DNA of 64,000 nt, from positions 3,146,501 through 3,210,500 of the forward strand of contig CP009416.1 of the NCBI GenBank assembly GCA_000818095.1. The letters are read 5' to 3'. Shown in pieces: positions 33,614 through 62,302 of the stretch. This stretch comes from Jeotgalibacillus malaysiensis. Its GTDB lineage: Bacteria; Bacillota; Bacilli; Bacillales; Jeotgalibacillaceae. A program made the position numbers and the translations under genes. A model generated the notes under the pieces. The model was not told where the DNA came from and ran no database searches. It worked only from the letters and a program-made list of their open reading frames with translations. The first letter of the stretch is position 1; each line of letters opens with the position of its first letter.

Positions 33614-34660
33614 CTATTTCAATACACCAGTCAGACGTTTTTGGTACAGCTCCCTGATCCCTTTTAAATAGGAGGCTGCTTTGTACTCAAGTTCCATATT
33701 TAAATCTGTTTGGTTTGGAATGAGCCATCTTTTTAATTCATTTAAAGTATGCTTCGGATGATCATAGCTGAAAAACTGATACTGAATAAATGCACGATAC
33801 GTATCATGCGGGTAAAGCTTTTGTTTAATAGAAAATGATTCAAGAAACCCGATTTCAAAGAAAAACGGTGTTTCGTTGACCAGATGATTCAATACAAACG
33901 TTATACGTTTATACGTCCGCTCCCGCTTAGCCCTCTCCAACAACTGCTGGAAATTGATCGGCTCTTTGGCCTCCTGCAACACCTGAATAAGGTCAATAAA
34001 ATATTTCGGAGAATCCATATTATGACGCCAGCCGTGAAGACATGTGAAATAGAATGTATCTTCATCTGACAGCTGATACATGTAAGGAAGGATACTTGCT
34101 ACTGCATTCTCCCAAATGTTTTCCATATCAATACCCGTTGTATCCCCTCTCATAAACCCCCAGTGAACTTCAACACTGAATGGAATCGCAGAACCTTTCA
34201 CAGGACGGTAAAAGGATGTATGGAAATGACCGTCGATTTCTTCTTCATTTTTAAGAAATCCTGCTGCTTGAAGTAGTGCGGAAGTTTTTTCAATATCCTG
34301 CGGCAATATCAGGAGATCCAGGTCAGATGTTGCTCTTGCGCAGGCATCTCCAAAATAACGTTCAGCAAAAAAACCGCCTTTTAATGGAATGACCTTTATT
34401 TCTTCATCACTTATCCGCTTCACGACCTTTTGACTTTCAATGGACAGCCATTTTAAGAGAAACATATTTTTCTTATATGATTGCTTAAGCGCATCTTGCG
34501 CAAACCCAGGCAGTTCATTGTACTTTTCCGATCGCTGAAGCAGTGTGTAAACCTGAGGCAGTATCCCTTCAGATTCAGCGAATTCCGTCAGGCGGCTGTA
34601 TTGCTGCCACTGGAGATGATCTTCTGTGTAGAGCAGTCTCAGTACTTGTCTTACATCCAT
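33614..34660 (-). CDS. RiPP cassette 2: nucleotidyltransferase-family protein N2
   Basis: This 348-residue protein has the minimal nucleotidyltransferase motif in PLKGGFFAERYFGDACARAT followed by SDLDLLI (GG…SDLDL, residues about 100-130), and later FYFTCLHGWRHNMDSPKY. It belongs to the same family (NTP_transf_5 type) as N1 of the lasso cassette. In the pseudomycoidin lasso system a relative modifies the kinase-phosphorylated peptide with sugar; a similar tailoring role is inferred here. It is 18 bases downstream of the second ABC gene. Confidence 0.8.
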   Translation of the reverse strand: MDVRQVLRLLYTEDHLQWQQYSRLTEFAESEGILPQVYTLLQRSEKYNELPGFAQDALKQSYKKNMFLLKWLSIESQKVVKRISDEEIKVIPLKGGFFAERYFGDACARATSDLDLLILPQDIEKTSALLQAAGFLKNEEEIDGHFHTSFYRPVKGSAIPFSVEVHWGFMRGDTTGIDMENIWENAVASILPYMYQLSDEDTFYFTCLHGWRHNMDSPKYFIDLIQVLQEAKEPINFQQLLERAKRERTYKRITFVLNHLVNETPFFFEIGFLESFSIKQKLYPHDTYRAFIQYQFFSYDHPKHTLNELKRWLIPNQTDLNMELEYKAASYLKGIRELYQKRLTGVLK

Positions 34661-34678
34661 TTTACTGCCTCCCTTCTA

Positions 34679-36487
34679 TTAGATAACGTCCTGACGTTGA
34701 ATACTTCTTTGTGTGAATTGATCTGCCTGTATCAGCTCTTTATACAGTCCTTCTCTCTTCAACTCTGCATGCGTGCCGGCCTGAACTAGCTGGCCTTCTT
34801 TGAATACGAGAATCTGATCTGCATGCTGAATCGTTGAAAGCCTGTGCGCAATGATAATCGTTGTTCTGCCCTTCATCAATCGCTGAAGCGCCGACTTCAC
34901 AAGCATTTCTGTTTCACTATCGAGTGCTGAAGTCGCTTCATCAAGAAGCAGGATCGGCGCATCCTTCAATAGTGCTCTGGCAATCGCGATCCGCTGACGC
35001 TGACCCCCGGATAACCTGACGCCTCTTTCACCAAGCTCTGTCTGATATCCTTCAGGAAGACTCATAATAAACTCATGAATATTTGCATCCCTTGCAGCCT
35101 GCACCATTTTTTCAAAAGTTGCATTTGGTGCAGCGATTTTCAGGTTTTCCTCTACAGAACCACTGAAAAGGAAGGTATCCTGAGGGACGTAGGAGATGGC
35201 GCTTCTTAGCACTGCAACATCCATTTCATTTATCGGCTTCCCATCCAGCTCAATCGATCCATCATTCACTTCATAAAACCGCATAATCAATTGAAACAAC
35301 GTTGATTTCCCTGCCCCGCTCGGACCGACAAATGCCGTTACCTGTCCAGCCGGCAGCTTAAATGAAAGATCCTGAAACAGCGGGCTGTATTCCTGATATG
35401 AAAAGTGAATATTTTTAACGTCAATTCCCTGACTGATTTGAATCACATCTTTTCTAAAAGGTAACTCCTCAGCTGTTTTCGTCTGGTCAAAAACTTTCAC
35501 TACCCGTTCAAGGGCTGTCATTGACCGCTGATATCCTGCCCACTGCCCTGCAAAGCCTGTAAGTGGAGAGACAAGTAAATTAACGAGATTCACAAAGGTT
35601 AGCAGCATACCGGCTGTAATGGACCCCTGACTCACAAAAAAGGCACCCATCAGTAAACTCGCAAGAAATGTTAAGCTTGCTACAGCCTGACCCCCGGCAT
35701 AGAAGGTTCCCTGAATTTTTGCTTCTTTTAATTCCAATCTATATAAATCTTCCGTTTGTTTTCGATATTGGTTATGAAACAGATTCTCGAGTGTAAATGA
35801 TTTAATCACAGTCATACCGTGAAATGTATCATTCAGCTTTTTGGTTAACTCGCTGATTGTTTCATGAATGATAGTGCCATTTCTTTTCAGCAGTAGGCCG
35901 AATACAGCCCCTGCAACAATTGCAAGCGGTGCAACGGATAAACTGATAAGAGAAAGCTTCCAGCTGATAGACATCAGGTAAATTAAAGCAGCAGTAATCA
36001 TAATCGGGAACCGGATCAGATTTAACAATCCACTTCCAACGACTGCATTGACGCTATGAATATCATTCGTAAAATGCGACATCCACTTACCTGAATGATC
36101 TTTATTCAGATCAGATGAAGATAATGTAAGAATATGAGCATATAAATCCTGATTTAAATCTTTTTTAATGTTGTTCATTGAAGTTGTTTCAACATAGGTC
36201 CATACAAAGTTTGATACAATTTGATAGATAACCAGCAGCAGCCCGATTATTAAAAGGAATCTCAGCCTTTCGAAATTTCCATTGATCGCAGCATCAATGA
36301 CATTTCCCATAAACCATGCAAATGCCAGTGTAACGCCTATTCCAATCAACAGCATGACGATCATTGCCAGGTAGGACATCTTATATCGCCAGACATAAGG
36401 AGCAAGGAGCCGGAATATCTTTTTAAAGTTTTTCACAGATAAATATTGTCTGATTTCCTCCTTCCGTTCCACAGTCAGCCAGTTCAT
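34679..36487 (-). CDS. RiPP cassette 2: ABC exporter D2
   Basis: This 602-residue fused permease-ATPase has six transmembrane helices (about residues 38-320) and an ATPase domain with GPSGAGKST, YVPQDTFLFSGS, LSGGQRQR, ILLLDEATSALD and IAHRLST. There is no N-terminal C39 peptidase domain, so leader removal must be done by another enzyme, plausibly the adjacent S24/S26-type peptidase. It sits 12 bases after that gene. It is inferred to export the product of the 67-residue precursor, also giving self-immunity. Confidence 0.85.
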   Translation of the reverse strand: MNWLTVERKEEIRQYLSVKNFKKIFRLLAPYVWRYKMSYLAMIVMLLIGIGVTLAFAWFMGNVIDAAINGNFERLRFLLIIGLLLVIYQIVSNFVWTYVETTSMNNIKKDLNQDLYAHILTLSSSDLNKDHSGKWMSHFTNDIHSVNAVVGSGLLNLIRFPIMITAALIYLMSISWKLSLISLSVAPLAIVAGAVFGLLLKRNGTIIHETISELTKKLNDTFHGMTVIKSFTLENLFHNQYRKQTEDLYRLELKEAKIQGTFYAGGQAVASLTFLASLLMGAFFVSQGSITAGMLLTFVNLVNLLVSPLTGFAGQWAGYQRSMTALERVVKVFDQTKTAEELPFRKDVIQISQGIDVKNIHFSYQEYSPLFQDLSFKLPAGQVTAFVGPSGAGKSTLFQLIMRFYEVNDGSIELDGKPINEMDVAVLRSAISYVPQDTFLFSGSVEENLKIAAPNATFEKMVQAARDANIHEFIMSLPEGYQTELGERGVRLSGGQRQRIAIARALLKDAPILLLDEATSALDSETEMLVKSALQRLMKGRTTIIIAHRLSTIQHADQILVFKEGQLVQAGTHAELKREGLYKELIQADQFTQRSIQRQDVI

Positions 36488-36499
36488 CCGGTCCCCTCC

Positions 36500-36928
36500 T
36501 CACCTTTTCTTTTTTGATAAACGTACAATACATTTTCTGTACCAATGACGTTGAAGCAAATGTGCATGTACTTTCCACATCCCGTCGTTTGGACCAACCC
36601 ATTTAGACTGCTTCTTTACTTTCATTAACTCACCAATGACCTGATCCGCTTTAATCACCGGATCCATTCCGAGATTTGCGTCTCCTTTAAGATAAAGGCC
36701 GGATTGCTTTTCATAGATCAGACGATGAACGACAAAACGCCCCTGATCATCCGCATAAAGATAAATGCTTCCTGGTGTAAACACTTGTCCGCTGACTGAT
36801 TTAAATACACACCGCTCACCTTCAATAATCAAAGGGAACATGCTTGTACCCTTACCGGACATTTCAAAGGTTCCACTCACATCCAAATGCTTTCTAAAGA
36901 GCTCCAGCCCCGCTTCACTGAGATTCAT
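36500..36928 (-). CDS. RiPP cassette 2: S24/S26-type (SipW-like) peptidase
   Basis: This 142-residue protein starts at ATG 36928, preceded by AAAAGGA; a longer in-frame opening would overlap the PqqD gene by 92 bases. Motifs of the Ser-His signal peptidase type are visible: GKGTSMFPLI (Ser29), VVHRLIY (His68) and LKGDANLGMD (KGDAN, residues 81-85). Unlike SipW it has no clear transmembrane helix, so it is probably soluble. In a RiPP setting it is the best candidate for cutting the precursor 2 leader; this is inferred from position and motifs. The C-terminal basic tail ends RLSKKKR. Confidence 0.8.
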   Translation of the reverse strand: MNLSEAGLELFRKHLDVSGTFEMSGKGTSMFPLIIEGERCVFKSVSGQVFTPGSIYLYADDQGRFVVHRLIYEKQSGLYLKGDANLGMDPVIKADQVIGELMKVKKQSKWVGPNDGMWKVHAHLLQRHWYRKCIVRLSKKKR

Positions 36929-37181
36929 TTCCGACCAATCCTTTTTGCTGCATATCTCTGAAGAATACTTCGAGATCTCGCTCAATGACTTCAGGTGGTG
37001 CGTCATAAACCGCTAATAGTTGCTGCCTGATCTCATCGATGGTCTTCCCTTGGCTTAATAGTTCCCAGCAGAATAATCCGGTTTCATTCAATGTGGTAAC
37101 CGTAAACTGTTCAGCATGTAAAATCACTGCTTCATCGTTAAATTCCATCTTTTCCTGCTCACCTGTTAATATCAGTTTCAT
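36915..37181 (-). CDS. RiPP cassette 2: PqqD-like leader-binding protein
   Basis: This 88-residue PqqD-fold protein has LNETGLFCWELLSQGKTIDEI (the [N/S]xxxxxxWxLL pattern) and a C-terminal helix pair. Such RiPP recognition elements hold the leader peptide for the tailoring enzymes. ATG 37181 overlaps the kinase stop (ATGA), so the TTG at 37199 is less likely. It overlaps the peptidase gene by 14 bases. It is clearly distinct from the lasso B1 protein, implying recognition of a different leader, presumably that of the 67-residue precursor. Confidence 0.82.
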   Translation of the reverse strand: MKLILTGEQEKMEFNDEAVILHAEQFTVTTLNETGLFCWELLSQGKTIDEIRQQLLAVYDAPPEVIERDLEVFFRDMQQKGLVGNESQ

Positions 37182-37963
37182 GATGTCATCAACTCCCAAA
37201 AAGTAGGATCTTTCTTAAAATACAAATGATAGACTTCTGTTTGTGAAATCATCTGCTGAAGCATGGAAGTAATTTTTTTCACGTCTTCTTTATTCATAGA
37301 CCAGTAAAAAACTTTATCCATTAACAAGATAAAGGCCTGGGCCTTGCCCATTTCCATTCTGTGATTGTCAGGAGACTGGTGCAGCAGGTTAAGGCTTTTT
37401 AGACTGTATGGTCCTGCACCTGCTGTTTCCATTAGTTCACTTCTGAAGGGAGAGTGATAAATAAATACACCTTCTTCAGGATGGATTTTAATGAGTGTTG
37501 CTTCATCAGATAATAAAGGCCTCGGCATGGAAAGCTGTGCGGCTGTTGATTTTCCCGCTCCGGATCTGCCAGTGAAAATGTGTGCATTCTGATCATCAAG
37601 TACACAAGACGAATGGAGCAGAATTCCCCAATTTTGATGAGCGATTAAACCGCTGTATAAGGTCATGATTGAATGTTTAAGTGCAAGGGGGCTGTGTACA
37701 GTGACTTCAGCACGTGTATAGCTCGGATCAACAGTAATTGTGAAATCATCCCTCTGGTAAATGATACTTCCGCTTTTGCCATTCACCTTCACGTCGTATG
37801 AAGTAAAAGGCTTTTCGTGTCCTCTGAAAATCGTAATTTCAAGGTCATGCTGATCAGTTTTGAATGGCATGAAAGAAAATACAGTGCTGCATTCTCTAAT
37901 CACTTCTTGATCTGTTGAATAGATTCTGATTGAATGTGTTCCGATTTTAGTTTGAATCTCCAT
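37178..37963 (-). CDS. RiPP cassette 2: HPr-kinase-like protein K2
   Basis: This 261-residue protein has the HPr kinase/phosphorylase-like core: LLHSSCVL (117-124), Walker A GRSGAGKST (132-140), LLSDEATLI and a C-terminal helical part. Lasso kinases such as PadeK/ThcoK of the paeninodin group have the same fold and phosphorylate the peptide's C-terminal Ser. Precursor 2 ends Asn-Arg-Pro, with no terminal Ser, so the acceptor here must be elsewhere (Ser23, Ser43, Thr20 or Thr34 are possible). RBS AAAGGATGATGTCC precedes the ATG. Confidence 0.8.
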   Translation of the reverse strand: MEIQTKIGTHSIRIYSTDQEVIRECSTVFSFMPFKTDQHDLEITIFRGHEKPFTSYDVKVNGKSGSIIYQRDDFTITVDPSYTRAEVTVHSPLALKHSIMTLYSGLIAHQNWGILLHSSCVLDDQNAHIFTGRSGAGKSTAAQLSMPRPLLSDEATLIKIHPEEGVFIYHSPFRSELMETAGAGPYSLKSLNLLHQSPDNHRMEMGKAQAFILLMDKVFYWSMNKEDVKKITSMLQQMISQTEVYHLYFKKDPTFWELMTS

Positions 37964-37989
37964 TGGACATCATCCTTTAATTTGTATGG

Positions 37990-38041
37990 TCCGGTTACCC
38001 GTTTTACAAAAAACAGCTCAGGATAACCGGACTGGAGAGCT
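37990..38041 (-). promoter_or_regulatory. Overlapping hairpins between precursor 2 and K2
   Basis: On the minus strand, AGCTC…GAGCT (38037-38041 with 38015-38019) is followed by a six-base T run, like a weak terminator. TCCGGTTA/TAACCGGA (38024-38031 with 37990-37997) forms an alternative stem that uses the terminator's loop. The arrangement could limit read-through so that the precursor mRNA exceeds enzyme mRNA. Confidence 0.45.
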
Positions 38042-38045
38042 TTTG

Positions 38046-38249
38046 TTATGGTCTATTCCCATTTCCGTTTCCATTGCCGTTGCCATTATTATTACCAGGA
38101 CCGCAGTTATTAGGGAAGTTAGATCCATTCCCATTGTTATCCGGGATCGTAGCATTAGGATTGTCTTTGGCACAGTTCCAGCTCTGAGCCGTCTCAAACT
38201 GAATCATCTGATGCTCTTTCACTTCTGGTGCTACATACGCCATTTTCAT
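38046..38249 (-). CDS. RiPP cassette 2: candidate precursor peptide (67 residues)
   Basis: ATG 38249 follows GGAGGTGAGATAT. The start MKMAYVAPEVKEHQ has Tyr5, Pro8 and Val10, the same spacing as the YxxPxL leader motif bound by lasso B1 proteins. FETAQSWNCAKDNPN follows, then a tail with a second Cys (Cys49) and five consecutive Asn-Gly pairs ending NRP. Two Cys (26 and 49), a leader motif and placement ahead of kinase, PqqD, peptidase and ABC genes all point to a RiPP precursor. If Ala21 were core residue 1, Asp29 would be residue 9, as in the paeninodin ring; a lasso fold is possible but unproven. Confidence 0.72.
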   Translation of the reverse strand: MKMAYVAPEVKEHQMIQFETAQSWNCAKDNPNATIPDNNGNGSNFPNNCGPGNNNGNGNGNGNGNRP

Positions 38250-38314: not shown

Positions 38315-40105
38315 TTAAGATGCACCCATCTGCTTTTGCAGAAGATGACTGAATAAATTGGTTTTTTCCTGGGCCAGCTGCTTAAAGCCTCCCTGTTGAA
38401 TGACTTCTCCCTGATCGAGCACAATGACCTGATCAGCGTTTCGGATCGTCGAGAGTCTGTGAGCAATTACCAGGATTGTCATTTTGCCCTTCAGCTTTTC
38501 TATTGCCTGCTGAATGCTTGCTTCACTGTCAGCGTCAAGCGAACTTGTTGCTTCATCCAGGACGAGTACAGATGGTTTTCTTAAAATCGCTCTTGCCAGA
38601 ACAATTCTTTGGCGTTCTCCACCTGACAATTTAATACCACGGTCACCAATCAGTGTATCCAATCCCTCAGGAAGCCTGCTCACAAAACCATCTGCTGATG
38701 CAAAAGTCAGTGCTTCCCACAGCTCTTCATCTGTTGCATTGCCTTTTACAAGCAATAAATTACTGCGGATTGAAGTGTTAAAGAGAAATGGATCCTGGGG
38801 CACATAGCTGATTGTCTTTCTGAGTGACTGGATCTTTTCGGGCGTTAAAGTTTCACCATCTACAAGAATCCGACCCTCATCTGGAATATTTAGTCCCATT
38901 AGCAAGTCAACCAGTGTACTCTTACCTGCACCTGACCGACCGACAAACGCGGTCATTTCATTCGCCCTGACTGTAATAGAAATATTTTGCAGCGTAAATG
39001 CTGCCTGATCAGTCTGATATTTAAATGATACGTCCTCGACTTTCATTGATTCTTTTACAGTCAATGCCGGATAGTCAGCTAAAGCTGCTTCCACTTCTGC
39101 ACTGGCATGGCATTTCTGCTGCAGGTTTTGAATGCCTTTAAATGATGGCAGTACTGTTGCAATCTGTTCAAGCGAAGCCTGAATGCCAGCTACTCTTGGC
39201 CACAGCCTCGAGAATATCACCATGATCAGCATAAGCTGTGCGAGCTGCGCGCTGAACACCATAATCGCTACATAAATGAAAATCGCAATTAACACGGAAG
39301 ATGCAATTTTATAATACGTCTGTGATGTGGCTCTCAGACGCGAATAATCTGTCTGTTCTTTTTTCATACGCTCTGTCAGGTCTTCAAACCAATTTAGTCT
39401 CGATGATTCCAAAGAATTACTTTTAATTTCCTTCATCCCGTTCATCTGATCAGTAATCCCGGCCATATATTCCCTTTGAAGTTCATAGTTTCTTTTCCCG
39501 AGTGCTAATGATTTCTTTAAAAACTTTCGGTTAAAGAATACCAATGCGCCTCCAAAGAGTAGGACAAAGGCTGTAATGACTGGTGCAAGAATGAATGCAA
39601 GAACCACTTGGAATGCAGTTGTGATAATTGATGACGCAAACTGCAGAACCGCCTGCGTTCCGCTGCTAGCTTTCATGACCTCACCTGCTAACGCATTCAC
39701 CAGATCCGACCGTCTGTTACTGATAAAAAACAGCCAGTTTGAGCGAATCAGCTCCCGGTATGTTTTAACACGTAAATGCTTTAAAAACCCCTGGTAAATG
39801 ACCGCATTTCTTACGCCCACTTCCCTGTGCAGCAGATACTGAGAAGCCGCCAGTACCAGAAACGCGCTTAAAATAAGTAAGAGTGATGTACCGATTGGCA
39901 TATTTCCTAAAAAATCAAACCATCCGGCAAATGGAATGACAGATGAGTCAAATGGGATAATCCCTGTCAGACCAATCATCGGGATCAGCATGACGATCGC
40001 TGCGCCTTCAAGGAGTCCAATGATAATCATGGCGCTAATATTAATATATAGTGTGCGACCTGCAAATCTCTTCATTTCCTTTAGAAAATAAAGCATTTCC
40101 TTCAT
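38315..40105 (-). CDS. Lasso cassette: ABC exporter D1
   Basis: This 596-residue fused permease-ATPase has six transmembrane helices (about residues 18-310) and an ATPase domain with GRSGAGKST, YVPQDPFLFNTS, LSGGERQR, VLVLDEATSSLD and IAHRLST. It is the D component of paeninodin-type lasso clusters, exporting the mature lasso peptide and protecting the producer. It overlaps the nucleotidyltransferase gene by 4 bases, so it is firmly in the lasso operon. No peptidase domain is present, as expected since B2 cuts the leader. Confidence 0.88.
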   Translation of the reverse strand: MKEMLYFLKEMKRFAGRTLYINISAMIIIGLLEGAAIVMLIPMIGLTGIIPFDSSVIPFAGWFDFLGNMPIGTSLLLILSAFLVLAASQYLLHREVGVRNAVIYQGFLKHLRVKTYRELIRSNWLFFISNRRSDLVNALAGEVMKASSGTQAVLQFASSIITTAFQVVLAFILAPVITAFVLLFGGALVFFNRKFLKKSLALGKRNYELQREYMAGITDQMNGMKEIKSNSLESSRLNWFEDLTERMKKEQTDYSRLRATSQTYYKIASSVLIAIFIYVAIMVFSAQLAQLMLIMVIFSRLWPRVAGIQASLEQIATVLPSFKGIQNLQQKCHASAEVEAALADYPALTVKESMKVEDVSFKYQTDQAAFTLQNISITVRANEMTAFVGRSGAGKSTLVDLLMGLNIPDEGRILVDGETLTPEKIQSLRKTISYVPQDPFLFNTSIRSNLLLVKGNATDEELWEALTFASADGFVSRLPEGLDTLIGDRGIKLSGGERQRIVLARAILRKPSVLVLDEATSSLDADSEASIQQAIEKLKGKMTILVIAHRLSTIRNADQVIVLDQGEVIQQGGFKQLAQEKTNLFSHLLQKQMGAS

Positions 40106-41265
40106 GTCTTCACCCCTTCAGCAACTGTCGGTCCCTTACTTTTCCTCCAGATCCAAAGTGCCGGCCTGAGCGGAAAATACAGCAGGTGCAGTTGCTTTGG
40201 CAGTGGAAGCGTATGAACATCCTCCGGGTAAGGGTAAAGCGTGCTCGCCGCAAAAAACAGCTTTTGCTTCAACGGCATTAGTGAGTAAAGGTGTTTCCGG
40301 TGATAGTCTGATACTTCTTTTTCTAAAGGCAGCGTATGCAGGTTGACCATCCGCTCCAAATAAAACATCGCCTCGTCTGCGAGCTTCTTAGCGTGATCAG
40401 AAACAGTAAATGCCTCAGCCCCATCAGGCAGCGAAGTATGAAACAGATGATTCACCAAAATCAGTGCCTGACCTGCAACCTCCGGTGAATAGCATTGATA
40501 AGTCCTCGAGCGCATGCTGACCCAGTCTGGATGAAGATCTAAAAATTGTCTGATATCCGCCAGCCATCGCAGCCTGGACCACCCATGTCTTGCTCCGTGA
40601 TGTACTAAAAAATAGAAATAATCTTCCTTGCCAAGAAGGTGTGCGTGATCACTAATGGATTGCCTACGCGCCCATAAGTTTTCAAATCCCGGTTCTTTTC
40701 CGGGCCCCGGATTAAGTCGCCAGTGCAATTCAACCTTCATATTCTTTTCAGGATGAAGGTAGGCGACGTGATGATGACGCCACTTCCAGTCCCCGAGCAC
40801 TGTTTCGATATAATCGTCCTTGATATATCCTGCCTGTAATAAAAGTTGTTCTGATTGCTCGAGGTCCTTCAGTGATACAAGCACATCCAGATCTCCTGAA
40901 GTTCTCAGTGAAAGATCACCATATAGATAGCTGCCCATTTCCGGTCCTTTCAACTGAATCATCCGGATTCTTTGTTCATGAAACATATGATTTAACTGTT
41001 CCATTTCCGCTCCGAGACGAAGCATTTTAAAGATGTTTTGCTTGTATAGTGCTTCTAGTCTGCGTACGACATCAACAGGTATATCCGTCCGATTTTGATC
41101 AGTAACTTCTTTATATAAAAGGGGAAACACTCTATGATGCTTTGCCTGTTTAGCAAACAGCTCCCAATCGATTTTCCGGGTTAAATCGAGCGGCTCCCCG
41201 TTTAAAACAGCAAGTACTGCATTAAATTCCGGTGTACATGTATCAAGCTTTACCATCCGTCGCAC
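40102..41265 (-). CDS. Lasso cassette: nucleotidyltransferase-family protein N1
   Basis: This 387-residue protein has QLKGPEMGSYLYGDLSLRTS followed by GDLDVLV (nucleotidyltransferase core, residues about 107-135) and FYFLVHHGARHGWSRLRW. It is a relative of N2 and of the PsmN-type proteins in Bacillus lasso clusters, which act on the phosphorylated peptide. The exact chemistry here is unknown. It lies 11 bases after B2 and overlaps D1, supporting a tailoring role in the lasso pathway. Confidence 0.82.
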   Translation of the reverse strand: MRRMVKLDTCTPEFNAVLAVLNGEPLDLTRKIDWELFAKQAKHHRVFPLLYKEVTDQNRTDIPVDVVRRLEALYKQNIFKMLRLGAEMEQLNHMFHEQRIRMIQLKGPEMGSYLYGDLSLRTSGDLDVLVSLKDLEQSEQLLLQAGYIKDDYIETVLGDWKWRHHHVAYLHPEKNMKVELHWRLNPGPGKEPGFENLWARRQSISDHAHLLGKEDYFYFLVHHGARHGWSRLRWLADIRQFLDLHPDWVSMRSRTYQCYSPEVAGQALILVNHLFHTSLPDGAEAFTVSDHAKKLADEAMFYLERMVNLHTLPLEKEVSDYHRKHLYSLMPLKQKLFFAASTLYPYPEDVHTLPLPKQLHLLYFPLRPALWIWRKSKGPTVAEGVKT

Positions 41266-41276
41266 CTCCCTTCATA

Positions 41277-41723
41277 TTAAGTCAGCTCTTTCGCAAACTT
41301 TCCAACAACCGTATATCGTTTTCTCCCTTTTGCGCCTGTGATAATGAATGGGCCGCTGCGCAGCCACGCATGTGCCGCAAATTGATCCTTTTCATCCTTA
41401 CCAGTACCTAAATACAAGGTACTTGAAATCTTTCTTCTCGAGAGCATATTCATTGCGGCGACAGCCTGTACAAGACACATACTTTCCCAGGGAGTGTAAC
41501 GGCTCATCAGCTGGACGGCTTGAGAAACAGCTGCTACTGTCTGACGATCTTCCGGCCTGATCTCCTCAGAGGTCTCAGCCATGCTTTCACCTAACTGTTT
41601 AGATACCTTTTTAAAAGGAAGGGCTTTGAAGATCCGGCCATATGCAAGCTGTATCATTGCTTCAGGCAACATTTTTCTGACTGCCGGATCCATTGACCGG
41701 TATAAGTGAAGCTTTGCAATCAT
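41277..41723 (-). CDS. Lasso cassette: B2 leader peptidase (transglutaminase-like)
   Basis: This 148-residue lasso biosynthesis B2 protein is the cysteine protease that removes the leader before ring closure. The catalytic Cys83 is in WESMCLVQAVAAMNML and His118 in FAAHAWLRSG, the usual C…H arrangement of the family. Length is normal for a stand-alone B2. It begins 15 bases after B1 with its own ribosome binding site (AGGGAGG). This is the only B2 in the window, so if precursor 2 were also a lasso peptide it would have to share it. Confidence 0.9.
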   Translation of the reverse strand: MIAKLHLYRSMDPAVRKMLPEAMIQLAYGRIFKALPFKKVSKQLGESMAETSEEIRPEDRQTVAAVSQAVQLMSRYTPWESMCLVQAVAAMNMLSRRKISSTLYLGTGKDEKDQFAAHAWLRSGPFIITGAKGRKRYTVVGKFAKELT

Positions 41724-41738
41724 CTAAGACCCTCCCTG

Positions 41739-42029
41739 TTATTCATGCTGAATGAGATTTTCTTTCATGAGTTCATCCACAAAATTAAGCACTTCCATCT
41801 CACATTTTCCCCGGTCAACTTCATACCGTGATTCCAGTTCAGTTACTACTGCTTCAACGGTTACAGGCTTTTCAATCAGCGACCAGATCTCTCCCCCGAT
41901 TGCACCAAGGTTGTAGTACTTTCCGTTTTTGATACTCAGCATGACCTTTTCACCGTTCATATCACTGACCATGTGGCCGGGCTGTTGTGAAATAACTGTT
42001 TGTGTTGTGAGTTCATTCTGCTTTTGCAT
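41739..42029 (-). CDS. Lasso cassette: B1 leader-binding protein (PqqD family)
   Basis: This 96-residue RiPP recognition element has SIKNGKYYNLGAIGGEIWSLI (in two parts: NGKYYNL strand and GGEIWSLI helix) and a C-terminal winged-helix-like bundle, the standard lasso B1 pattern. It binds the leader and delivers it to B2. It overlaps the kinase gene by 17 bases. The lasso leader here has Trp5 and Ile8 where the common motif has Tyr and Pro, so this B1 may have an adapted pocket. Confidence 0.9.
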   Translation of the reverse strand: MQKQNELTTQTVISQQPGHMVSDMNGEKVMLSIKNGKYYNLGAIGGEIWSLIEKPVTVEAVVTELESRYEVDRGKCEMEVLNFVDELMKENLIQHE

Positions 42030-42942
42030 AGGTTAGATCCTCCTTCATGACAGTATTGATGATCATATTTGAAAGTTCATCTGCTGTAGACTTTTTTTCA
42101 GGTCTTCTTAGCTGATAAACATCTACCTGACCTGCAAGTCCTGCTGTCGTATTAAAATGCCAGTCTGCAAGACCCATTCGATTGATAAAAGATTTTCTAT
42201 AAGTATGTTGAAAGAATAATGGTAATTTACCAATCCCTTGAATACTGTTTATAGTCGGTTGTGGAAGATCTGCTTTGGATAATTCAAAAACACCTGCCAG
42301 CTCAACCTCTCCATCAAAATAAAACTGTTTTACAGGAACGTTGAACTTCGTTTCCCTCAGCATGATAGATTCATAGCGCTCGGCATCCATACTGAACATA
42401 TCCAGACTCTCCATCCACAGCTTCTGCTGAGCATATGAAGATGACAGATATGGAACACCTTCTTTAAAACTGACTGCAAGAACATCATCACTGATCAGCT
42501 TATAGCCTTTTTCCATCAGTGCTCTGGCTAATGTGGATTTCCCGGCCCCTGAGTCTCCGACAATCGCGTACGCTTTGCCATTGATTAATACTGCGCTGCC
42601 GTGGAGTGGAAGTACTTTTCTTTGGAGAAGGATTGCACCCACGCAAGTGCCTAAAAGATATAACTTAATTTGTTTTAGTTCAGCTGATTTTGTAGGTTGA
42701 TATTGAATATAGTTACCACCTGTAATTTTGAACCACCCTATTTCATCTACTTCGAACATGACATAATCTTTATCAACAACACTTCTTACATTGAATTTAC
42801 TAATGCGTTCCCATTCTGCAGCTAAAAGCTTATTTAGTTCTATTTTGATTTGCGGTTGTCTATATGTGACTGTTAATTCAGAAAGCTCAATATCACTGCA
42901 AATAGTTAATCCAAAAGATTTATAGTAAAACGGACTATTCAT
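42013..42942 (-). CDS. Lasso cassette: HPr-kinase-like peptide kinase K1
   Basis: This 309-residue protein has an N-terminal domain and an HPr-kinase-like core: LPLHGSAVLI (111-120), Walker A GDSGAGKST (129-137), LISDDVLAV and a C-terminal helical tail. Homologues in the paeninodin family phosphorylate the side chain of the precursor's C-terminal Ser. The precursor here indeed ends in Tyr-Ser, so Ser41 (core Ser22) is the expected acceptor. ATG 42942 follows GAGGGGGG. It is separated from the precursor by an attenuating terminator. Confidence 0.88.
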   Translation of the reverse strand: MNSPFYYKSFGLTICSDIELSELTVTYRQPQIKIELNKLLAAEWERISKFNVRSVVDKDYVMFEVDEIGWFKITGGNYIQYQPTKSAELKQIKLYLLGTCVGAILLQRKVLPLHGSAVLINGKAYAIVGDSGAGKSTLARALMEKGYKLISDDVLAVSFKEGVPYLSSSYAQQKLWMESLDMFSMDAERYESIMLRETKFNVPVKQFYFDGEVELAGVFELSKADLPQPTINSIQGIGKLPLFFQHTYRKSFINRMGLADWHFNTTAGLAGQVDVYQLRRPEKKSTADELSNMIINTVMKEDLTYAKAE

Positions 42943-42960
42943 TTAAACCCCCCTCTATAT

Positions 42961-42996
42961 AAAAAGCCCTTACATCACTATTAAGCATATAAGGGC
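42961..42996 (-). terminator. Attenuating terminator between lasso precursor and K1
   Basis: On the minus strand GCCCTTATAT and ATGTAAGGGC form a 10-base stem (one U-G pair) with an 11-base loop, followed by TTTTTATA. It lies 26 bases after the precursor stop and 19 bases ahead of the kinase start. Partial read-through would give more precursor than enzyme mRNA, a common layout in RiPP operons. Confidence 0.82.
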
Positions 42997-43021
42997 AGGG
43001 ATAAGTAGATAATAAATAAGA

Positions 43022-43147
43022 TTAACTGTAATTCACTGTCTCATCTGGATCACACTGGTATTCGTCTGCAATTCTTTTCCCTGGACCGGCAAATGTTTTA
43101 TCAACTTCAATAGATTCTAACGAAATCGTTGTCCATTTTTTCTTCAT
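43022..43147 (-). CDS. Lasso peptide precursor A (paeninodin family)
   Basis: A 41-residue precursor. ATG 43147 follows GGGGGTGAGAGTT, a strong ribosome binding site that lies inside the end of the cyclase gene (41-base overlap). The leader is MKKKWTTISLESIEVDKTF, with Thr at -2 as lasso maturation requires. The predicted core is 22 residues: ring AGPGKRIAD, closed between the Ala1 amine and the Asp9 side chain, then a 13-residue tail containing Cys13, an acidic DPDE stretch and C-terminal Tyr-Ser. Ring size, AGPG start, acidic tail and terminal Ser match paeninodin closely; Lys5-Arg6 and Cys13 differ. Ser22 is the expected K1 phosphorylation site. Confidence 0.92.
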   Translation of the reverse strand: MKKKWTTISLESIEVDKTFAGPGKRIADEYQCDPDETVNYS

Positions 43148-45074
43148 AACTCTCACCCCCTTTCAATCTACTTAAAAACCTTGTAAAAACAATTAAGTTC
43201 ATTAGTACTTTAAAATTGTAATCTACAGCTAAAGCCTTGTCAGGAGTATCTCCCAATTGATTTAATAGCATTTTTGCTTTTTCAATATCTAACATTGAAG
43301 CTATCTCATTATTTTCTAATGCTAAATTGACTTCTTTTTTTAATTTGTGCCAGTCATCAAGTAATCTATAATTTAAATCTGCGCTCTGAAGACCTCTTAC
43401 CTGATGGTTAAGTCGAACTTTTTCTGGAAGCACTTTCTTTGTTGAAAGTCTAATTAGAGCCCTATCCATACCACTCTTGAAAAATTGCTCTTCAGGTATA
43501 GATAAACAAAACCTGACTACTCTTAAATCATTTGTAGGATCCCGTGTCCAAACTTTGTACTTTAAAGAAAGCTTAGAAGAGGCATTATAATTTAGTAATG
43601 GAAATAGTTCATTAAAGTATTTGTTTCTCCATTTGCTATAGTCTATAGTTTGATCCCAGTGAGTAATTAATGACGTTTGTTGCATTTTAGAATGCAGGTT
43701 ATATTTTCTAAAGTATTTTTCATTTAATAATGTAGTTAAACGCTCACCTTTTTTACTGTCACCTTTTAACTTTTTCAAAGTTTTTTTAAGAATATCCTTT
43801 CTGCCATGTCCAGTTATCAAATGATATTCCTGCACTTCATTAATTAATGTCCTTATTTTCATTTTTGTTAATCTTTTTACAAAATGATCGAATGCATTTC
43901 CCCAAGAGACAGTAAAATTCCCTCTAGATCCACTTAATAAAACGTTTACACCTTCCTGTGAGGCTCTTTCATTGATCCCTCTGATCCAGTAAGAATTTTC
44001 AAAGAACTTATAAGGTGTCTCCATAATGTTTAACCATTGTTCAATATCTTTGTAACTACTCTTATCTGGAAACGATTCGTAGTGATGGATAATATTCTTA
44101 TGAGATTTTAATATTTCCTCAATGTATTCTTCTTCGTTTGCAATACGACTTTTAGGTGTCCAGTCTGAAAAACCTTTTAATGGGATTGAACTAAAAGAAT
44201 GAAGAAACTCTTCTTCTTTACTTAATTGCTTAGCGGCGATACTCGTTACCGAGCCTGAATCTAAACCTCCACTTAAAAAAGAACCCACTTTACCAACCGT
44301 TCTTAATCGATCTTGGACTGCTCTCTCAAAAATGGTTTTAAACGCCTGAACATATTCTTCATCAGTTTCAAATCTGATTTTTTCGTCTTCAGGCAATGTA
44401 ATATATCTATGCTGTTGGTAAACACCATTTTTAATAAAAAAATAATGAGCCGGTGGTAACTGTTTCACTTGTTTAAAAGGTGTCAAATCTACACTTACTC
44501 CTGGTGCGTATCCTGGCACTCCCATAAATTCAGCAAGCCATTCTTCATCTAATTCTTTTCCATTAGGTATAACGTTCTGAATAGCTTTAATAGTACTGGC
44601 CATATAAAATTTTTCATTAACAATACTATAATAGAGTGTTCTCAAACCTGAGAAGTCCCTTGCCCCTAAAAGCTGTGATTTTTCGGGATCCCAAATAACA
44701 AATGAAAAATCTCCTATTAAGTGATTGAACGCCTTCTCTTCCCATTTCAAATAAGCTTTTAAAATGAGTTGTGAATCAGGCATGTTAGCTCTTTGATATT
44801 CAGGAATATTTAAAAGTGAAAAAAGTTCTTGTCGATTATCAATAATTGCATCTGCTGAAATTACACAACCAGATTCCCTACAATAAAATGGTTGAATTTC
44901 ACCTACTGATTCTGGTGTGATCCATTGTGCATGATTACCAAGTAGAACATAATTTTTAAGATAGATTTGTTTATCATCAGCAGGAAAGTCTTCAAAGGCT
45001 TGCATCATTCTATGCCCTTCTTCTAATAACACATGCTTTTTATTTATGCTTAGGATGCCAACTAACGCACTCAT
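43107..45074 (-). CDS. Lasso cassette: cyclase C (asparagine-synthetase-like)
   Basis: This 655-residue protein has an N-terminal Ntn-like domain (residues 1-200) and a C-terminal ATP-binding synthetase domain with FLSGGLDSGSVTS (PP-loop, about residue 265). Residue 2 is Ser (MSALVGIL), not the Cys of glutamine-using asparagine synthetases, so it cannot use glutamine and instead adenylates the peptide's ring Asp for macrolactam formation. Start ATG 45074 follows GAGAGGGGAGTGATCC. Here the cyclase precedes the precursor, whereas paeninodin-type clusters usually begin with the precursor. Confidence 0.9.
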   Translation of the reverse strand: MSALVGILSINKKHVLLEEGHRMMQAFEDFPADDKQIYLKNYVLLGNHAQWITPESVGEIQPFYCRESGCVISADAIIDNRQELFSLLNIPEYQRANMPDSQLILKAYLKWEEKAFNHLIGDFSFVIWDPEKSQLLGARDFSGLRTLYYSIVNEKFYMASTIKAIQNVIPNGKELDEEWLAEFMGVPGYAPGVSVDLTPFKQVKQLPPAHYFFIKNGVYQQHRYITLPEDEKIRFETDEEYVQAFKTIFERAVQDRLRTVGKVGSFLSGGLDSGSVTSIAAKQLSKEEEFLHSFSSIPLKGFSDWTPKSRIANEEEYIEEILKSHKNIIHHYESFPDKSSYKDIEQWLNIMETPYKFFENSYWIRGINERASQEGVNVLLSGSRGNFTVSWGNAFDHFVKRLTKMKIRTLINEVQEYHLITGHGRKDILKKTLKKLKGDSKKGERLTTLLNEKYFRKYNLHSKMQQTSLITHWDQTIDYSKWRNKYFNELFPLLNYNASSKLSLKYKVWTRDPTNDLRVVRFCLSIPEEQFFKSGMDRALIRLSTKKVLPEKVRLNHQVRGLQSADLNYRLLDDWHKLKKEVNLALENNEIASMLDIEKAKMLLNQLGDTPDKALAVDYNFKVLMNLIVFTRFLSRLKGGESYEEKMDNDFVRIY

Positions 45075-45224: not shown

Positions 45225-46586
45225 TTAGGAGATATTTTTTTTAGCAACTGAAACTGTGTTTATACTATATTCGACATTCGCAAATTCAGTTTCTTCAGAT
45301 GCTTTACCAACCTGGACAAGCCGTATATCTGAATTCAATTTAATACGCTCTAAACAGTTCCTACCGTCTATAATTACAGGTTTGCTAATCATGCTATTAA
45401 TAGCCGCTGGAAGATGTTTGATAATAACTTCCCATTCTGTCAATACCAACACAATATCAGTGTTTTCAACGGCAGCTTCTACTGTTTCATGGTAAGAAAG
45501 TGTTGTTCCATACTGATTTTTAGTATTGGGCATGGCTTTAGGATCGAAAACTTGCACTTCTGCTTTTCTTTGCAATAAATAATCGATTACTCTCAGTGCT
45601 GGAGACTCACGAATATCGTCTGTCTCCGGTTTAAATGCCAGCCCAAGCACTGCAATTTTTGCATGCTCAATTTGCGTAGCGGATTGATTAATATGATCTA
45701 GCATCCAGTTAATTTGACGATCATTTACTTCCTTTGCAGCCTGCACAATTTTCATTTCTTTGTTATATTGACTTGCCAGATATATTAAAGCCTCAGTGTC
45801 TTTAGGGAAACAGGATCCACCATACCCAATACCCGCACGTAAAAAGCTTGATCCAATCCGCTTGTCTTTCCCAACACCCAAGGCAACTTCTTCGACATCT
45901 GCACCAACTTCTTCACATAACAAAGCTACTTCATTAATAAACGAAATCTTAACGGCTAAAAGTGCATTAGAGGCATATTTAATCATCTCTGCACTTTCAG
46001 GGGTGGTCAGACAATATTCTGTTTCAATCAGAGCATATAAGCTTTTTATTTTCTCATGAATCACATCATTATTCGCACCAATAACAATTCTATCCGGTTT
46101 ATAAAAGTCTTTTACAGCAGAACCTTCCCTTAAAAATTCCGGATTAGATGCAACTGTAAGATTTTTATTAGGAACAAGTTTTTTGCACAATGAATTTAGT
46201 TTTTCTGTTGTTCCAGCCGGAACGGTACTTTTTACAATAATGATACTGTTTTCTTTCATATAAGATGATGCGTTCTGTACTGCTCGAAATACATAAGTTA
46301 AGTCTGCCTCTCCATCCAGGCCGGGAGGAGTCCCGACAGCTATGAAGACTATATCTGTATCAGCAAATGCAAATCGCTCTTGTGAGGTGAAGAAAAGATT
46401 GTTCTTTTTTACGTTTCTTTTTAAAATTTTTTCGAGTCCCGGCTCATAAAAAGGTACTTGTCCCGATTCCAGCATTTTAATTTTATGCTGGTTAATATCA
46501 AAAATCTTTACCTCATGTCCAATATCAGAAAGGCACACACCTGTGACCAGACCTACATAACCACTTCCGATAACTGTTACCTTCAT
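45225..46586 (-). CDS. ugd: UDP-glucose 6-dehydrogenase
   Basis: This 453-residue enzyme oxidises UDP-glucose to UDP-glucuronate with two NAD. It shows GSGYVGLVTGVCLSDIGHEV (NAD fold), SNPEFLREGSAV, and the catalytic Cys in GYGGSCFPKDTEAL (about residue 260), then LGLAFKPETDDIRESPAL. It is 12 bases after the UDP-xylose synthase gene, which uses its product, and is the last gene of the glycan operon before the lasso promoter. Confidence 0.95.
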   Translation of the reverse strand: MKVTVIGSGYVGLVTGVCLSDIGHEVKIFDINQHKIKMLESGQVPFYEPGLEKILKRNVKKNNLFFTSQERFAFADTDIVFIAVGTPPGLDGEADLTYVFRAVQNASSYMKENSIIIVKSTVPAGTTEKLNSLCKKLVPNKNLTVASNPEFLREGSAVKDFYKPDRIVIGANNDVIHEKIKSLYALIETEYCLTTPESAEMIKYASNALLAVKISFINEVALLCEEVGADVEEVALGVGKDKRIGSSFLRAGIGYGGSCFPKDTEALIYLASQYNKEMKIVQAAKEVNDRQINWMLDHINQSATQIEHAKIAVLGLAFKPETDDIRESPALRVIDYLLQRKAEVQVFDPKAMPNTKNQYGTTLSYHETVEAAVENTDIVLVLTEWEVIIKHLPAAINSMISKPVIIDGRNCLERIKLNSDIRLVQVGKASEETEFANVEYSINTVSVAKKNIS

Positions 46587-46598
46587 ATCATTGACCTC

Positions 46599-47555
46599 CT
46601 AAGCCCTGATTTGATAATCTTTTAGCGCTTTAAAATACTCTATCGTTTTCGAAATACCTTCATCAACTGAAATCTCAGGCTCCCAATTTAATATGGCTTT
46701 AGCAAGGTCTATGTTAGGTTTTCTTAACTGCGGGTCATCTGATGGTAACGGCTGATAAATCCTCTCTGAACGTGATCCCGTCATACGAATAATTTTCTTT
46801 GCAAAATCATCAATCGAATATTCGACAGGGTTTCCAAGGTTTATTGGACCTATAACTGTATCAGATGAATTCATCATCAGAATAAAACCCCTCACCAAAT
46901 CTTCCACATAACAAAAAGATCTGGTTTGATTACCACTTCCATATATAGTGATATCTTCGTTTCTGATCGCCTGGTTTATAAAATTACTTACTACTCTTCC
47001 ATCATTCACATCCATATAAGGTCCATACGTATTAAAGATCCTGACTATTTTCACTTTGACCTGATGGGCACGATGATAGTCAATAAATAATGTTTCAGCA
47101 CAGCGCTTCCCCTCATCATAACAACTTCTTGTTCCAACGGGATTAACATTACCAAAGTAACCTTCCGGCTGGGGATGCTGTAAAGGATCTCCATACACTT
47201 CTGATGTAGACGCCTGAAGTATTTTGGCATCATGTTTTTTTGCTAATTCAAGTAAATTGATTGCTCCAAGTACGCTTGTTTTCATTGTGTGTATAGGGTC
47301 CTTTTGATATAAAGGTGGGCTTGCCGGACACGCTAGGTTATAAATCTCATCCACTCTGCCAGTCACATCTATAGGATTAATTACATCATGTTCAATAAAA
47401 CTGTAGTTAGGGTTAGTTAGAAATGCATAAATATTATCCTTGCTACCTGTCATAAGATTGTCAACGCAAATTACTTTGTGGCCCTCCTCTAATAATTTCT
47501 TTACTAAGTGCACGCCAATAAAACCTGCTCCACCAGCTACTAGAATTCTTTTCAT
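46599..47555 (-). CDS. UDP-glucuronate decarboxylase (UDP-xylose synthase)
   Basis: This 318-residue extended SDR has [59 protein letters not shown], and the catalytic [14 protein letters not shown] (YxxxK). These UXS-specific blocks separate it from dTDP-glucose dehydratases. It converts UDP-glucuronate to UDP-xylose, so with ugd it supplies xylose for the polymer. UDP-xylose synthesis is not common in bacilli, which makes the glycan somewhat unusual. Confidence 0.92.
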
Positions 47556-47566
47556 GATTTTTCCCC

Positions 47567-48631
47567 CTATACAATTTCAAGTTTTTCTATTACCTTCATT
47601 ACATAGCGCTTGCTTCTGCCAGCCCTGTATAATCTCCAACCTAACTGATCAAGATATTGAATATCTCTGTTTTCAATGGCATATAAAAAAGAAGCATCAA
47701 AATAAGTCTGCACCGACTTGTTTTTTAATGCTTCCTTTATTGTAGGATTATCTAGATAACCTCCAATAACCGCTTGCCTTATAGGAGTGCTTTTATAAGC
47801 TTCATTTTTATATAAATTACTTAAACACGTCTTAAAGGTATTAAGCAGCATAATAGAAATGCCGTTATAATGGTGTTGGTCATCATGAAAATATTCATTT
47901 ATTATTTCTTTTTGAATTATATATCCACTTACCATATCATCAAATAAATATGACATATACTTACTAGTTAACCCCCCTGCTCTGTAATAATAAAGAGATT
48001 CGGGTATGGTGACAACTTTTTTTGAATGAAGCAAAACTTCGATATTATAGTATAAATCTTCTCCAAGAAAGATTATGGAGTCTAAGTACTTCCCTGAATC
48101 CAGAAGTAATTCCTTTTTATATAATTTAGCAAATAACGACGCTGGAAAAGGATGTCCGTGAAAATAAGCAGCAGCAAGCTTTTCACGCACTTCATGGTCA
48201 TTGTATACCTTTTTCACATCAAAAAAATGACTATTATTCGACTTTTTTATGATAGCAGCATTGTCAAAAACCTTATAAGTATTACAAACCACTACGTCTG
48301 CGTCTTCTAGCACCATTTGTTCATATAACTTTGTGCATATAGAATGATCCACCCAGTCATCTGCATCTACAAACATCACATACTTAGAAGACGCTTCAAT
48401 GACACCTCTTCTTCTTGTCTTGATGCTCCCTTCATTGTTTTTATTAATAATCTTTATTCTTCCATCTTGCTTCGCATATTTTTTGCATATATTCAGGCTC
48501 TTATCCGTGGATCCGTCATTTACTAAAATAATCTCAAGCTCTTTCATATCCTGTGCAATTAAAGACAAAATACATTTCTCTAGTTTTTTTCCGGCATTAT
48601 AAACAGGTACTACAATGCTCATCTGCACCAC
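47567..48631 (-). CDS. Family 2 glycosyltransferase
   Basis: This 354-residue GT-A enzyme begins [19 protein letters not shown], with [13 protein letters not shown] and [10 protein letters not shown] (DxD-type metal site) in the N-terminal 100 residues, then [19 protein letters not shown]. The GTG start follows AAGGAGG. It is a clear paralogue of the next gene upstream (48645-49703): both carry the same [10 protein letters not shown] and SKYM blocks. Donor and acceptor are unknown. Strongly AT-rich compared with the start of the operon. Confidence 0.88.
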
Positions 48632-48644
48632 TGTATAGCCCTCC

Positions 48645-49703
48645 TTAACTAACGGGAATTTTATCGATCATTTTCATAACTCTATGCTTTAGATATTTCT
48701 TTCTATAATAAGCCTGTCCTATTCTATAAAAATAAGTACTGTCTTTTTCCTCGAGTGCCTTTTTTAGTTCCTCTGGAAAAAATTTCTTAACCCCCTGATT
48801 TATAGTGGCTTCCTGAATATATTTGTTAGATAAGTACTTGTTAATTTCATTCATTATTTCTTTTTGACTCAGTGAACCTAAAAATAGACCATAGACCGTT
48901 CTGTTTAACATATTAATGAGCATAATACTCGATCCATTCAACTGACTTTGAAGAGAGTCTTGGTAATATTGATGTGCCACTTGTTTTTGAACTTCATAGC
49001 CTCGGACTACATCATTGAATAAATTCGGCATATACTTGCTTGTAGTACCACCTAGACGATAATAGTATAATGGTTCTTTTAATACTTTTATTTTTTTGGA
49101 ATGAAGAAGTATTTCCATGTTATAGAATAGATCGTCTCCTAAGATGGTAAATCCTTTTAAGAGGTTATCGTGCTGTAAAAGCAAATCTCTTCTATAGATT
49201 TTCCCATGTAAGGCAGCGGGAAAAGGATGCCCGTGAAAGTAAGCAGTAATAATATCTTTTTTAATTTCTTCCCCTTCATATACTTTATCTTCATCAAAAT
49301 ACCAGCCATTATTCCGCTGTTTAACGAGTCTCCCTTCTCCAAGTACTCTAAACGTGTTGCACACAACAACATCGTATTCTGACTGCTTAAGTTCGTTAGC
49401 GAAAATCTCAAGCATTTTTGGATGAATCCAGTCATCAGAATCAACAAATGTAACAAACTCTGAAGCGGCCAATTCAATTCCTTTTCTACGGGTAGGGATA
49501 GTACCTTCATTAGATTTATGAAATGCCTTCACTCTAAAATCTTTTCTTGAAAAATCATCTATCAACTCTGCTGATCCATCTGTAGACCCGTCATTTACCA
49601 AAATTAACTCTAAATCTGTATGCGATTGATTGAGTATGGACTTAACACACTTTTTAAACTTCACACCTGGATTATATACAGGAACCACTACACTAATTTT
49701 CAT
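48645..49703 (-). CDS. Family 2 glycosyltransferase (paralogue)
   Basis: This 352-residue GT-A enzyme begins KISVVVPVYNPGVKFKKCV, with [15 protein letters not shown] and FVDSDDWIHPKM, then [19 protein letters not shown]. Conserved blocks along the whole length with the 47567-48631 protein indicate tandem duplication. Both lack transmembrane segments and should act on lipid-linked intermediates at the inner face of the membrane. Only 2 bases separate it from the next upstream gene. Confidence 0.88.
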   Translation of the reverse strand: MKISVVVPVYNPGVKFKKCVKSILNQSHTDLELILVNDGSTDGSAELIDDFSRKDFRVKAFHKSNEGTIPTRRKGIELAASEFVTFVDSDDWIHPKMLEIFANELKQSEYDVVVCNTFRVLGEGRLVKQRNNGWYFDEDKVYEGEEIKKDIITAYFHGHPFPAALHGKIYRRDLLLQHDNLLKGFTILGDDLFYNMEILLHSKKIKVLKEPLYYYRLGGTTSKYMPNLFNDVVRGYEVQKQVAHQYYQDSLQSQLNGSSIMLINMLNRTVYGLFLGSLSQKEIMNEINKYLSNKYIQEATINQGVKKFFPEELKKALEEKDSTYFYRIGQAYYRKKYLKHRVMKMIDKIPVS

Positions 49704-49705
49704 GA

Positions 49706-53484: not shown

Positions 53485-53497
53485 ACCTATCGCTCCT

Positions 53498-54634: not shown

Positions 54635-54640
54635 CTCCTC

Positions 54641-55837: not shown

Positions 55838-55845
55838 AACCTCTC

Positions 55846-56268
55846 TTAAGTTAATATTTTCACCTTGTTTTTAACTTGTGTTGTAGATATGTTCGCCGTA
55901 TACGGAAAATAAACAACCTCAACCCCCAGCTCATGAAACATCCGCTCTGTCTTCGTAAAGAGATTACTGCCCTTCCAGTCATCCCCTACGAACATGGCAT
56001 CAAATCTCAGCTCCTGCCAGGCCGCTACTTTATCACGTGATACCTGAGGGACGACTTCATCTACATATTTGATGCTTTCCACGATTGCGACACGATCTTC
56101 AAAGCTGATCACAGGCGTTTTCTTTTTATATTGTTTTACAAGCTCATCAGTGCTGACACCAACGATTAGATAATCGCAGTGCTCTTTCGCTTTTCTCAAA
56201 ATGTTTAAGTGTCCTACGTGAAACAGATCAAATACCCCTGTTGTATATCCAATGCTATATGGCTTCAT
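55846..56268 (-). CDS. tagD: Glycerol-3-phosphate cytidylyltransferase
   Basis: This 140-residue enzyme makes CDP-glycerol from CTP and glycerol 3-phosphate. ATG 56268 after GGAGCG gives the correct family N terminus MKPYSIGYTTGVFDLFHVGH; the longer open frame up to 56508 is out of register with family length and overlaps the upstream gene. The HxGH motif (FHVGHLNIL) and the closing ISTTQVK are present. It overlaps the glycerophosphotransferase gene by 14 bases, which uses its product. Confidence 0.93.
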   Translation of the reverse strand: MKPYSIGYTTGVFDLFHVGHLNILRKAKEHCDYLIVGVSTDELVKQYKKKTPVISFEDRVAIVESIKYVDEVVPQVSRDKVAAWQELRFDAMFVGDDWKGSNLFTKTERMFHELGVEVVYFPYTANISTTQVKNKVKILT

Positions 56269-57427: not shown

Positions 57428-57431
57428 TCCG

Positions 57432-58475: not shown

Positions 58476-58486
58476 CGCTGTTCCCC

Positions 58487-60743: not shown

Positions 60744-60762
60744 TGCAACCCCTTCTTCCACT

Positions 60763-62289: not shown

Positions 62290-62302
62290 TGAAAGTTCCT
62301 CC

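Follow-up and report, generated by a model that had tools for sequence, protein, structure and literature searches.

The 64,000-nucleotide stretch of Jeotgalibacillus malaysiensis DNA analysed here (contig CP009416.1, positions 3,146,501 to 3,210,500; hereafter the window) carries at 38249-33614 six tightly packed minus-strand genes, lppA-K-B-S-D-N, which encode a precursor peptide, a kinase, a RiPP (ribosomally synthesized and post-translationally modified peptide) recognition element (RRE), a peptidase, an exporter and an NTP_transf_5 protein (Table 1). Neighbouring genes lie close together or overlap: the RRE gene begins at 37181, overlapping the kinase stop codon as ATGA, and the peptidase gene begins at 36928, before the RRE gene has ended. 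Each of the six frames is open, and the precursor ATG at 38249 is preceded by the ribosome-binding site GGAGGTGA. Gene calls and family profiles bear out the six-gene RiPP cassette that the first-pass annotation of this stretch had placed here, as well as its parallel with the adjacent lasso peptide genes (C, A, K, B1, B2, N, D, at 45074-38315) and the replacement of the lasso cyclase and B2 by one Ser-His peptidase; no lasso cyclase or B2 peptidase of its own was found within 33614-38249, both being part of the neighbouring cluster. In profile scans, the RRE matches PqqD PF05402 with 66.9 bits (cut-off 23.4), LppN matches NTP_transf_5 PF14907 with 123 bits (cut-off 31.2), and the exporter LppD matches ABC_membrane and ABC_tran with 141.8 and 121.4 bits.

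This is the core gene set of the linear polyphosphorylated peptides (LPP; lppAKBSDN), described by Popov et al. (Nat Commun, 20 May 2026; PMC13381572): a peptidase resembling signal peptidase I, a discrete RRE, an HprK-like kinase, an NTP transferase and an MsbA-like exporter. The first-pass annotation knew of no characterised peptide class made by such a set and proposed an undescribed one, a proposal that no longer holds now that LPP have been characterised in May 2026; in a full-text literature search, PMC13381572 was the sole paper listed on the class. According to the available parts of that paper, LppK phosphorylates Ser3 of the core, LppS cuts after T-1 in an RRE-dependent manner, and crystal structures of the RRE with the leader have been solved; several phosphates on Ser3 together with the cut after T-1 have been shown for the P. 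alginolyticus product only. The substitutions S3A, S3T and S3Y each abolished phosphorylation, Cys not being mentioned in these parts. The published strain, P. alginolyticus DSM 5050 (L059), has the order A-K-B-S-D-N followed by lasso genes, as in the window, and its precursor, as counted here, yields the published 27-residue leader and 45-residue core (PMC13381572, as available).

Table 1. Coordinates and assignments of the cassette and of neighbouring features in the window.
Feature	Position	Strand	Assignment and details
lppA	38046..38249	-	precursor, 67 residues, Asn/Gly-rich; leader 38249-38190, core 38189-38049
lppK	37178..37963	-	kinase of predicted HprK/phosphoenolpyruvate carboxykinase (PEPCK) fold, 261 residues; H117, K138 (P-loop), D153, E154
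lppB	36915..37181	-	discrete PqqD-like RRE, 88 residues; Asn/Asp at LppB N33/D70 places
lppS	36500..36928	-	SipW-like leader peptidase, 142 residues; Ser/His/Asp/Phe at S29/H68/D93/F42 places
lppD	34679..36487	-	MsbA-like ATP-binding cassette (ABC) exporter, 602 residues
lppN	33614..34660	-	NTP_transf_5 protein, 348 residues; PF14907
Paeninodin-type lasso cluster	38315..45074	-	lasso_PadeA_fam 42.4 bits (cut-off 27), lasso_biosyn_B2 99.8 bits (cut-off 33)
lasso gene C	45074-43107	-	
lasso gene A	43156-43022	-	
lasso gene K	42942-42013	-	
lasso gene B1	42029-41739	-	
lasso gene B2	41723-41277	-	
lasso gene N	41265-40102	-	
lasso gene D	40105-38315	-	
Surface-polysaccharide locus	45225..63540	-	10 of its proteins scanned; upstream of cassette, same strand; UDP-sugar dehydrogenase, epimerase, glycosyltransferases, cytidylyltransferase, CDP-glycerol glycerophosphotransferase, DegT, PglD-like, Bac_transf

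The window precursor has a 20-residue leader with the YxxP motif (Y-16, P-13, V-11) and the end FET, and a 47-residue core that begins AQSWN, with S3 as the acceptor and cysteines C6 and C29; the cleavage after T-1 and the acceptor were assigned by aligning the peptide with LppA of P. alginolyticus as published. The leader YVAPEVKEHQMIQFET and the core start AQSWN match the published YxxPxVLxHQxIxFETxxS, the consensus leader in the window, YVAPEVKEHQMIQFETAQS, differing from it by a single mismatch, K for L at -10. Numbered as in the paper, the residues conserved in the window are T30, L32, N33, C39, Y60, D70, F74, M78 and L83 of LppB and S29, M30, P32, F42, H68, R69 and D93 of LppS. The best PDB match of the RRE is the LppB-leader complex 9x8z (E 1.2e-12), followed by TbiB1 (4.8e-8). 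In an RRE tree, built from few columns and with rows labelled by their best match to the window's two RREs, the window RRE groups with 81 LPP RREs, separated from 28 lasso RREs by a 100/100 branch. At LppB places 33 and 70 the window RRE has N and D and the window's lasso RRE G and E, which agrees with the model in the available text of PMC13381572, where Gly is expected at the first discriminating place in the lasso paeninodin RRE.

The genes, their order, the motifs and the catalytic residues are the same as in the published cluster, and the window is a further member of the known LPP class, with an unusual cysteine pair in the core. We consider it very probable that the cassette is an lpp gene cluster with the following mechanism, its inferred steps included. 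LppB would bind the LppA leader at its YxxPxV motif and present the peptide, LppK would add one or more phosphates to core Ser3, and LppS would cleave after FET, releasing the 47-residue core. LppD probably exports the core, LppN probably adds a sugar or nucleotide to the phosphate, helped from outside the cluster, and a C6-C29 disulfide probably forms after export. Activity of the window's own Lpp proteins is expected by analogy with the P. alginolyticus cluster, for which RRE binding, Ser3 phosphorylation and leader cleavage are reported in the available parts of PMC13381572.

Conservation was assessed over 82 loci (the window, L004 and L016-L095; L005-L010 were excluded as some repeat named loci), the relatives in the collection of named genomes being the best 80 of 112 kinase matches. 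The kinase and the peptidase are found in all 82, the RRE in 81, N in 79 and D in 78, and 87 precursors with the same leader occur in 81 of the loci, L084 being the single case with no recognisable precursor. Such recurrence of enzymes and precursor shows that their association is not due to chance. The enzymes therefore do not regularly occur without the precursor, which the first-pass annotation had named as an observation that would speak against its reading, and the peptide is intact in G009 (L004), the sole close genus relative with the cassette. A kinase search of 101 genomes gave eight strong matches (E < 1e-60, window included) and three more genomes with weak P-loop matches; within the genus, two of 12 genomes have the cassette kinase and the other ten lack the cassette altogether, while seven have a protein related to the lasso cyclase over its full length (E < 1e-148). 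Judged by the record titles of the best 80 of 112 matches, most of the relatives come from Bacillales and Paenibacillaceae; Alicyclobacillus and Sporolactobacillus are among the few remaining ones. The LPP genes of L034 (Chryseobacterium) and L067 (Pseudomonas) fall inside Bacillota branches, and these records are probably mislabelled or mixed assemblies. An origin as a mobile element was rejected: the precursor, kinase and N protein have no PHROG match, the peptidase has just a weak repressor match (21.3 bits), and the kinase has no match in the plasmid collection.

Position -11 is V or I in all 87 precursors, while 77 of them have L at -10, 68 have H at -8 and 63 have Y at -16, and the first five core residues are AQSWN in 39; FET in all 87 is partly a matter of selection, because the search demanded [FY][EQD][TS], along with P-13 and [STGC] at core position 3. 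In G009, the nearest relative, the leader is identical to that of the window except for one residue, and both cysteines are kept. The 82-nucleotide gap between lppA and lppK contains a hairpin (37989..38032, minus strand; minimum free energy -23.7, z -2.94); across the family z <= -2 is reached in 35 of 61 analysed gaps, the genus relative L004 giving just -0.86. The hairpin could be an attenuator, a processing element or a 3'-end stabiliser; as a terminator it was rejected, having no T-run in the window and no significance in L004, and it remains a weak lead. Some precursors carry unusual cores. In L021 (6997-7437, minus strand) and L028 (6914-7390, minus strand), beside an ordinary LPP cluster, the LPP-type leader HQTISFETTISG precedes a CFI-box-CTERM domain (NF041770, 50.6 and 48.0 bits, cut-off 40), and such a leader may deliver the whole domain. 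In L039 (13269-13994, minus strand) an LPP leader is followed by a very long core, some 178 residues with a high content of Asp, Pro and Thr, and in L071 (16367-16786, plus strand) by a very long Cys-rich repeat core that runs off the stretch end.

The core cysteines follow a pattern of parity. Among 86 complete precursors (the one cut by the L071 stretch end was dropped), cysteines outside core position 3 number 0 in 54, 1 in 2, 2 in 26, 3 in 1, 4 in 1 and 8 in 2, whereas equal independent use of Cys would give about 37, 30, 13, 4 and 1 for counts 0 to 4. The largest core group, of 66 precursors, comprises 52 without Cys, 14 with two and no other count, and on a quick kinase tree of 78 loci, switches between a pair and no Cys number 10 or more. 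These counts are most simply read as a disulfide whose two cysteines are gained and lost together, and they suggest a disulfide-looped LPP subclass making up about a third of the set, the window (C6, C29) included. The cassette has no cyclase, but C6 and C29 of the window probably pair and close a loop, and the term linear may be wrong for the subclass; neither "disulfide" nor "S3C" occurs in the main text of PMC13381572 as available. Core position 3 is Ser in 83 of the 87 precursors and Cys in four (L030, L031, L056 and L080), Thr and Gly, although allowed by the search, being seen in none. Where neighbours were compared, Ser3 and Cys3 codons differ by one base (AGC/AGT to TGC/TGT); the Cys3 precursors have 0 or 2 other cysteines and an intact kinase motif, and represent at least three changes on the kinase tree. 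In all 82 loci the kinase residues H117, K138, D153 and E154 and the LppS places Ser29, His68, Asp93 and Phe42 are each kept. The Asp-Glu pair is thus common to all 82 kinases; the window's own lasso kinase reads SDD, and a review, in its available parts, gives His-Lys-Asp-Asp for lasso kinases (PMC9266682). Cys parity, the Ser3-to-Cys replacement and the invariant kinase Asp-Glu are additions to the published LPP picture.

Several observations weigh against the LPP assignment or the steps proposed for it. Lys-10 is found in only two of the 87 precursors, the window and G009, where Leu is usual, and cleavage was markedly lowered when L-10 was replaced (available text of PMC13381572), a point against the K-10 precursor of the window. 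LppB departs from the published residues by K31 to Thr, V35 to Thr and V63 to Pro, and LppS by E6 to Ala, I10 to Leu, K17 to Val and R18 to Ser, so that the modelled LppB-LppS hydrogen-bond locks are absent (Thr at K31, Ala at LppS E6, Val/Ser at K17/R18). The disulfide reading is statistical, drawn from precursors that share ancestry, and odd Cys counts occur in four of them, including the one truncated at its stretch end. Deletion of lppN in the B. subtilis host left the detected products unchanged, and no final product was found (PMC13381572, as available); of the phosphorylated and glycosylated product put forward in the first-pass annotation, phosphorylation stands as the expected modification and glycosylation as a putative one. 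Finally, the kinase scores 27.5 bits against HprK_rel_A, below its cut-off of 200, and the peptidase 31.0 bits against archaeal-type signal peptidase I (TIGR02228), below 51.85. Because of these weak profile scores the kinase fold was modelled (mean predicted local distance difference test 92.4): the model has 75 PDB matches at E <= 0.001, and among the best 50 of these, 49 are PEP (phosphoenolpyruvate) carboxykinases and none is an HPr kinase entry. PEP carboxykinases belong to the superfamily of HPr kinase, and the window kinase is predicted to have the PEPCK fold.

The polysaccharide locus that precedes the cassette spans 18 kb and includes a CDP-glycerol glycerophosphotransferase, which raises the question of whether LppN and the polysaccharide genes turn the Ser3 phosphate into a phosphodiester to a sugar or glycerol-phosphate, the exported peptide being tied to, or helping to build, the surface polymer. 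Consistent with this, the homologous N protein of pseudomycoidin adds one or two hexoses to phosphorylated Ser (available parts of PMC9266682), and the LPP authors describe capsule or polysaccharide loci near LPP genes in other genomes (available parts of PMC13381572). However, of 80 named loci just 27 have in their flanks a homologue of one or more of the 11 polysaccharide proteins taken from the window, a count made without background control, and polymer attachment is unreported in the available literature passages on the class; we regard the idea as possible, though rather unlikely. The fuller combination, in which a disulfide-looped subclass exists, the nucleophile at core position 3 is Ser or Cys (the kinase may charge the thiol too), and LppN with surface-polysaccharide enzymes links a sugar or glycerol-phosphate group to the charged residue to give a peptide-polymer conjugate of the cell surface, appears improbable. 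In the lasso cluster beside the cassette, the precursor at 43022-43156 reads WTTISL, with Ile at the Pro place of WxxP; among 11 pattern-caught lasso precursors the Pro is missing in the window alone, and the genus relative in L097 has it.

K-10, the loss of both modelled locks and the ten genus genomes without the cassette could also mean that the cassette is decayed or inactive in the genus, LppS no longer cutting LppA. This is very unlikely: the six frames are open with every catalytic residue kept, LppB Thr31 with a non-acidic LppS 6 is found in other genera too, and two species of the genus retain identical changes at -10 and at the contact with 64% kinase identity, which suggests selection rather than decay. 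Covariation at these contacts was rejected. Basic LppB 31 and acidic LppS 6 occur together in 36 loci, basic alone in 34, acidic alone in 0 and neither in 11 (Fisher p 0.0009), and the Y-16 and D70 contact gives counts of 55, 4, 12 and 9 (Fisher p 0.0005), but a kinship-aware test leaves 3 to 4 independent pairs on supported branches, with a median p of 1, and therefore no covariation is claimed. A further alternative takes the 67-residue peptide for a second lasso precursor and has the kinase, RRE, exporter and N protein of the cassette work for the lasso peptide next door. It is rejected as very improbable: although the two gene sets adjoin and are homologous and lasso C or B2 homologues lie in the flanks of 30 of the 82 loci, none was found in 52 (flanks up to 8 kb, some shorter), the RREs split into two groups, the leader end FET-AQSWN is unlike that of a lasso precursor, the cassette lacks cyclase and B2, and, in the available parts of PMC13381572, cross-binding tests show discrimination and the cluster gives phosphorylated, processed LppA without lasso genes.

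Taken as an LPP cluster, the window adds a member whose core is short and probably disulfide-bonded and whose RRE-peptidase contact is altered; in its genome the genes for lasso peptide, LPP and polysaccharide form one array. LPP entered the literature only months ago, and both Cys parity and the replacement of Ser3 by Cys are testable additions to what has been published.

Compared with P. alginolyticus lppAKBSDN, the window cassette shares the gene set and order, the lasso neighbour, the YxxP...FETxxS leader, S3, RRE N33 and D70 and the Ser-His-Asp of the peptidase, but differs in having Lys for Leu at -10, changed LppB-LppS contact residues, two Cys in a core that has none in P. alginolyticus, and a kinase 43% identical to that of L059. 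With paeninodin-type lasso peptides (its own neighbour; pseudomycoidin) it has in common the RRE, the HprK-like kinase, the ABC exporter and the NTP_transf_5 protein; it lacks the cyclase and the B2 cysteine peptidase, its leader motif has Tyr where that of the lasso has Trp, and its phosphate is expected on Ser3 of the core, where the lasso peptides carry theirs on the C-terminal Ser. With SipW-type signal peptidase I, the peptidase shares the Ser-His-Asp catalytic residues and the TIGR02228 match below cut-off, whereas the LPP peptidase, according to the available text of PMC13381572, cuts an RRE-bound cytoplasmic leader and not the signal peptide of a secreted protein.

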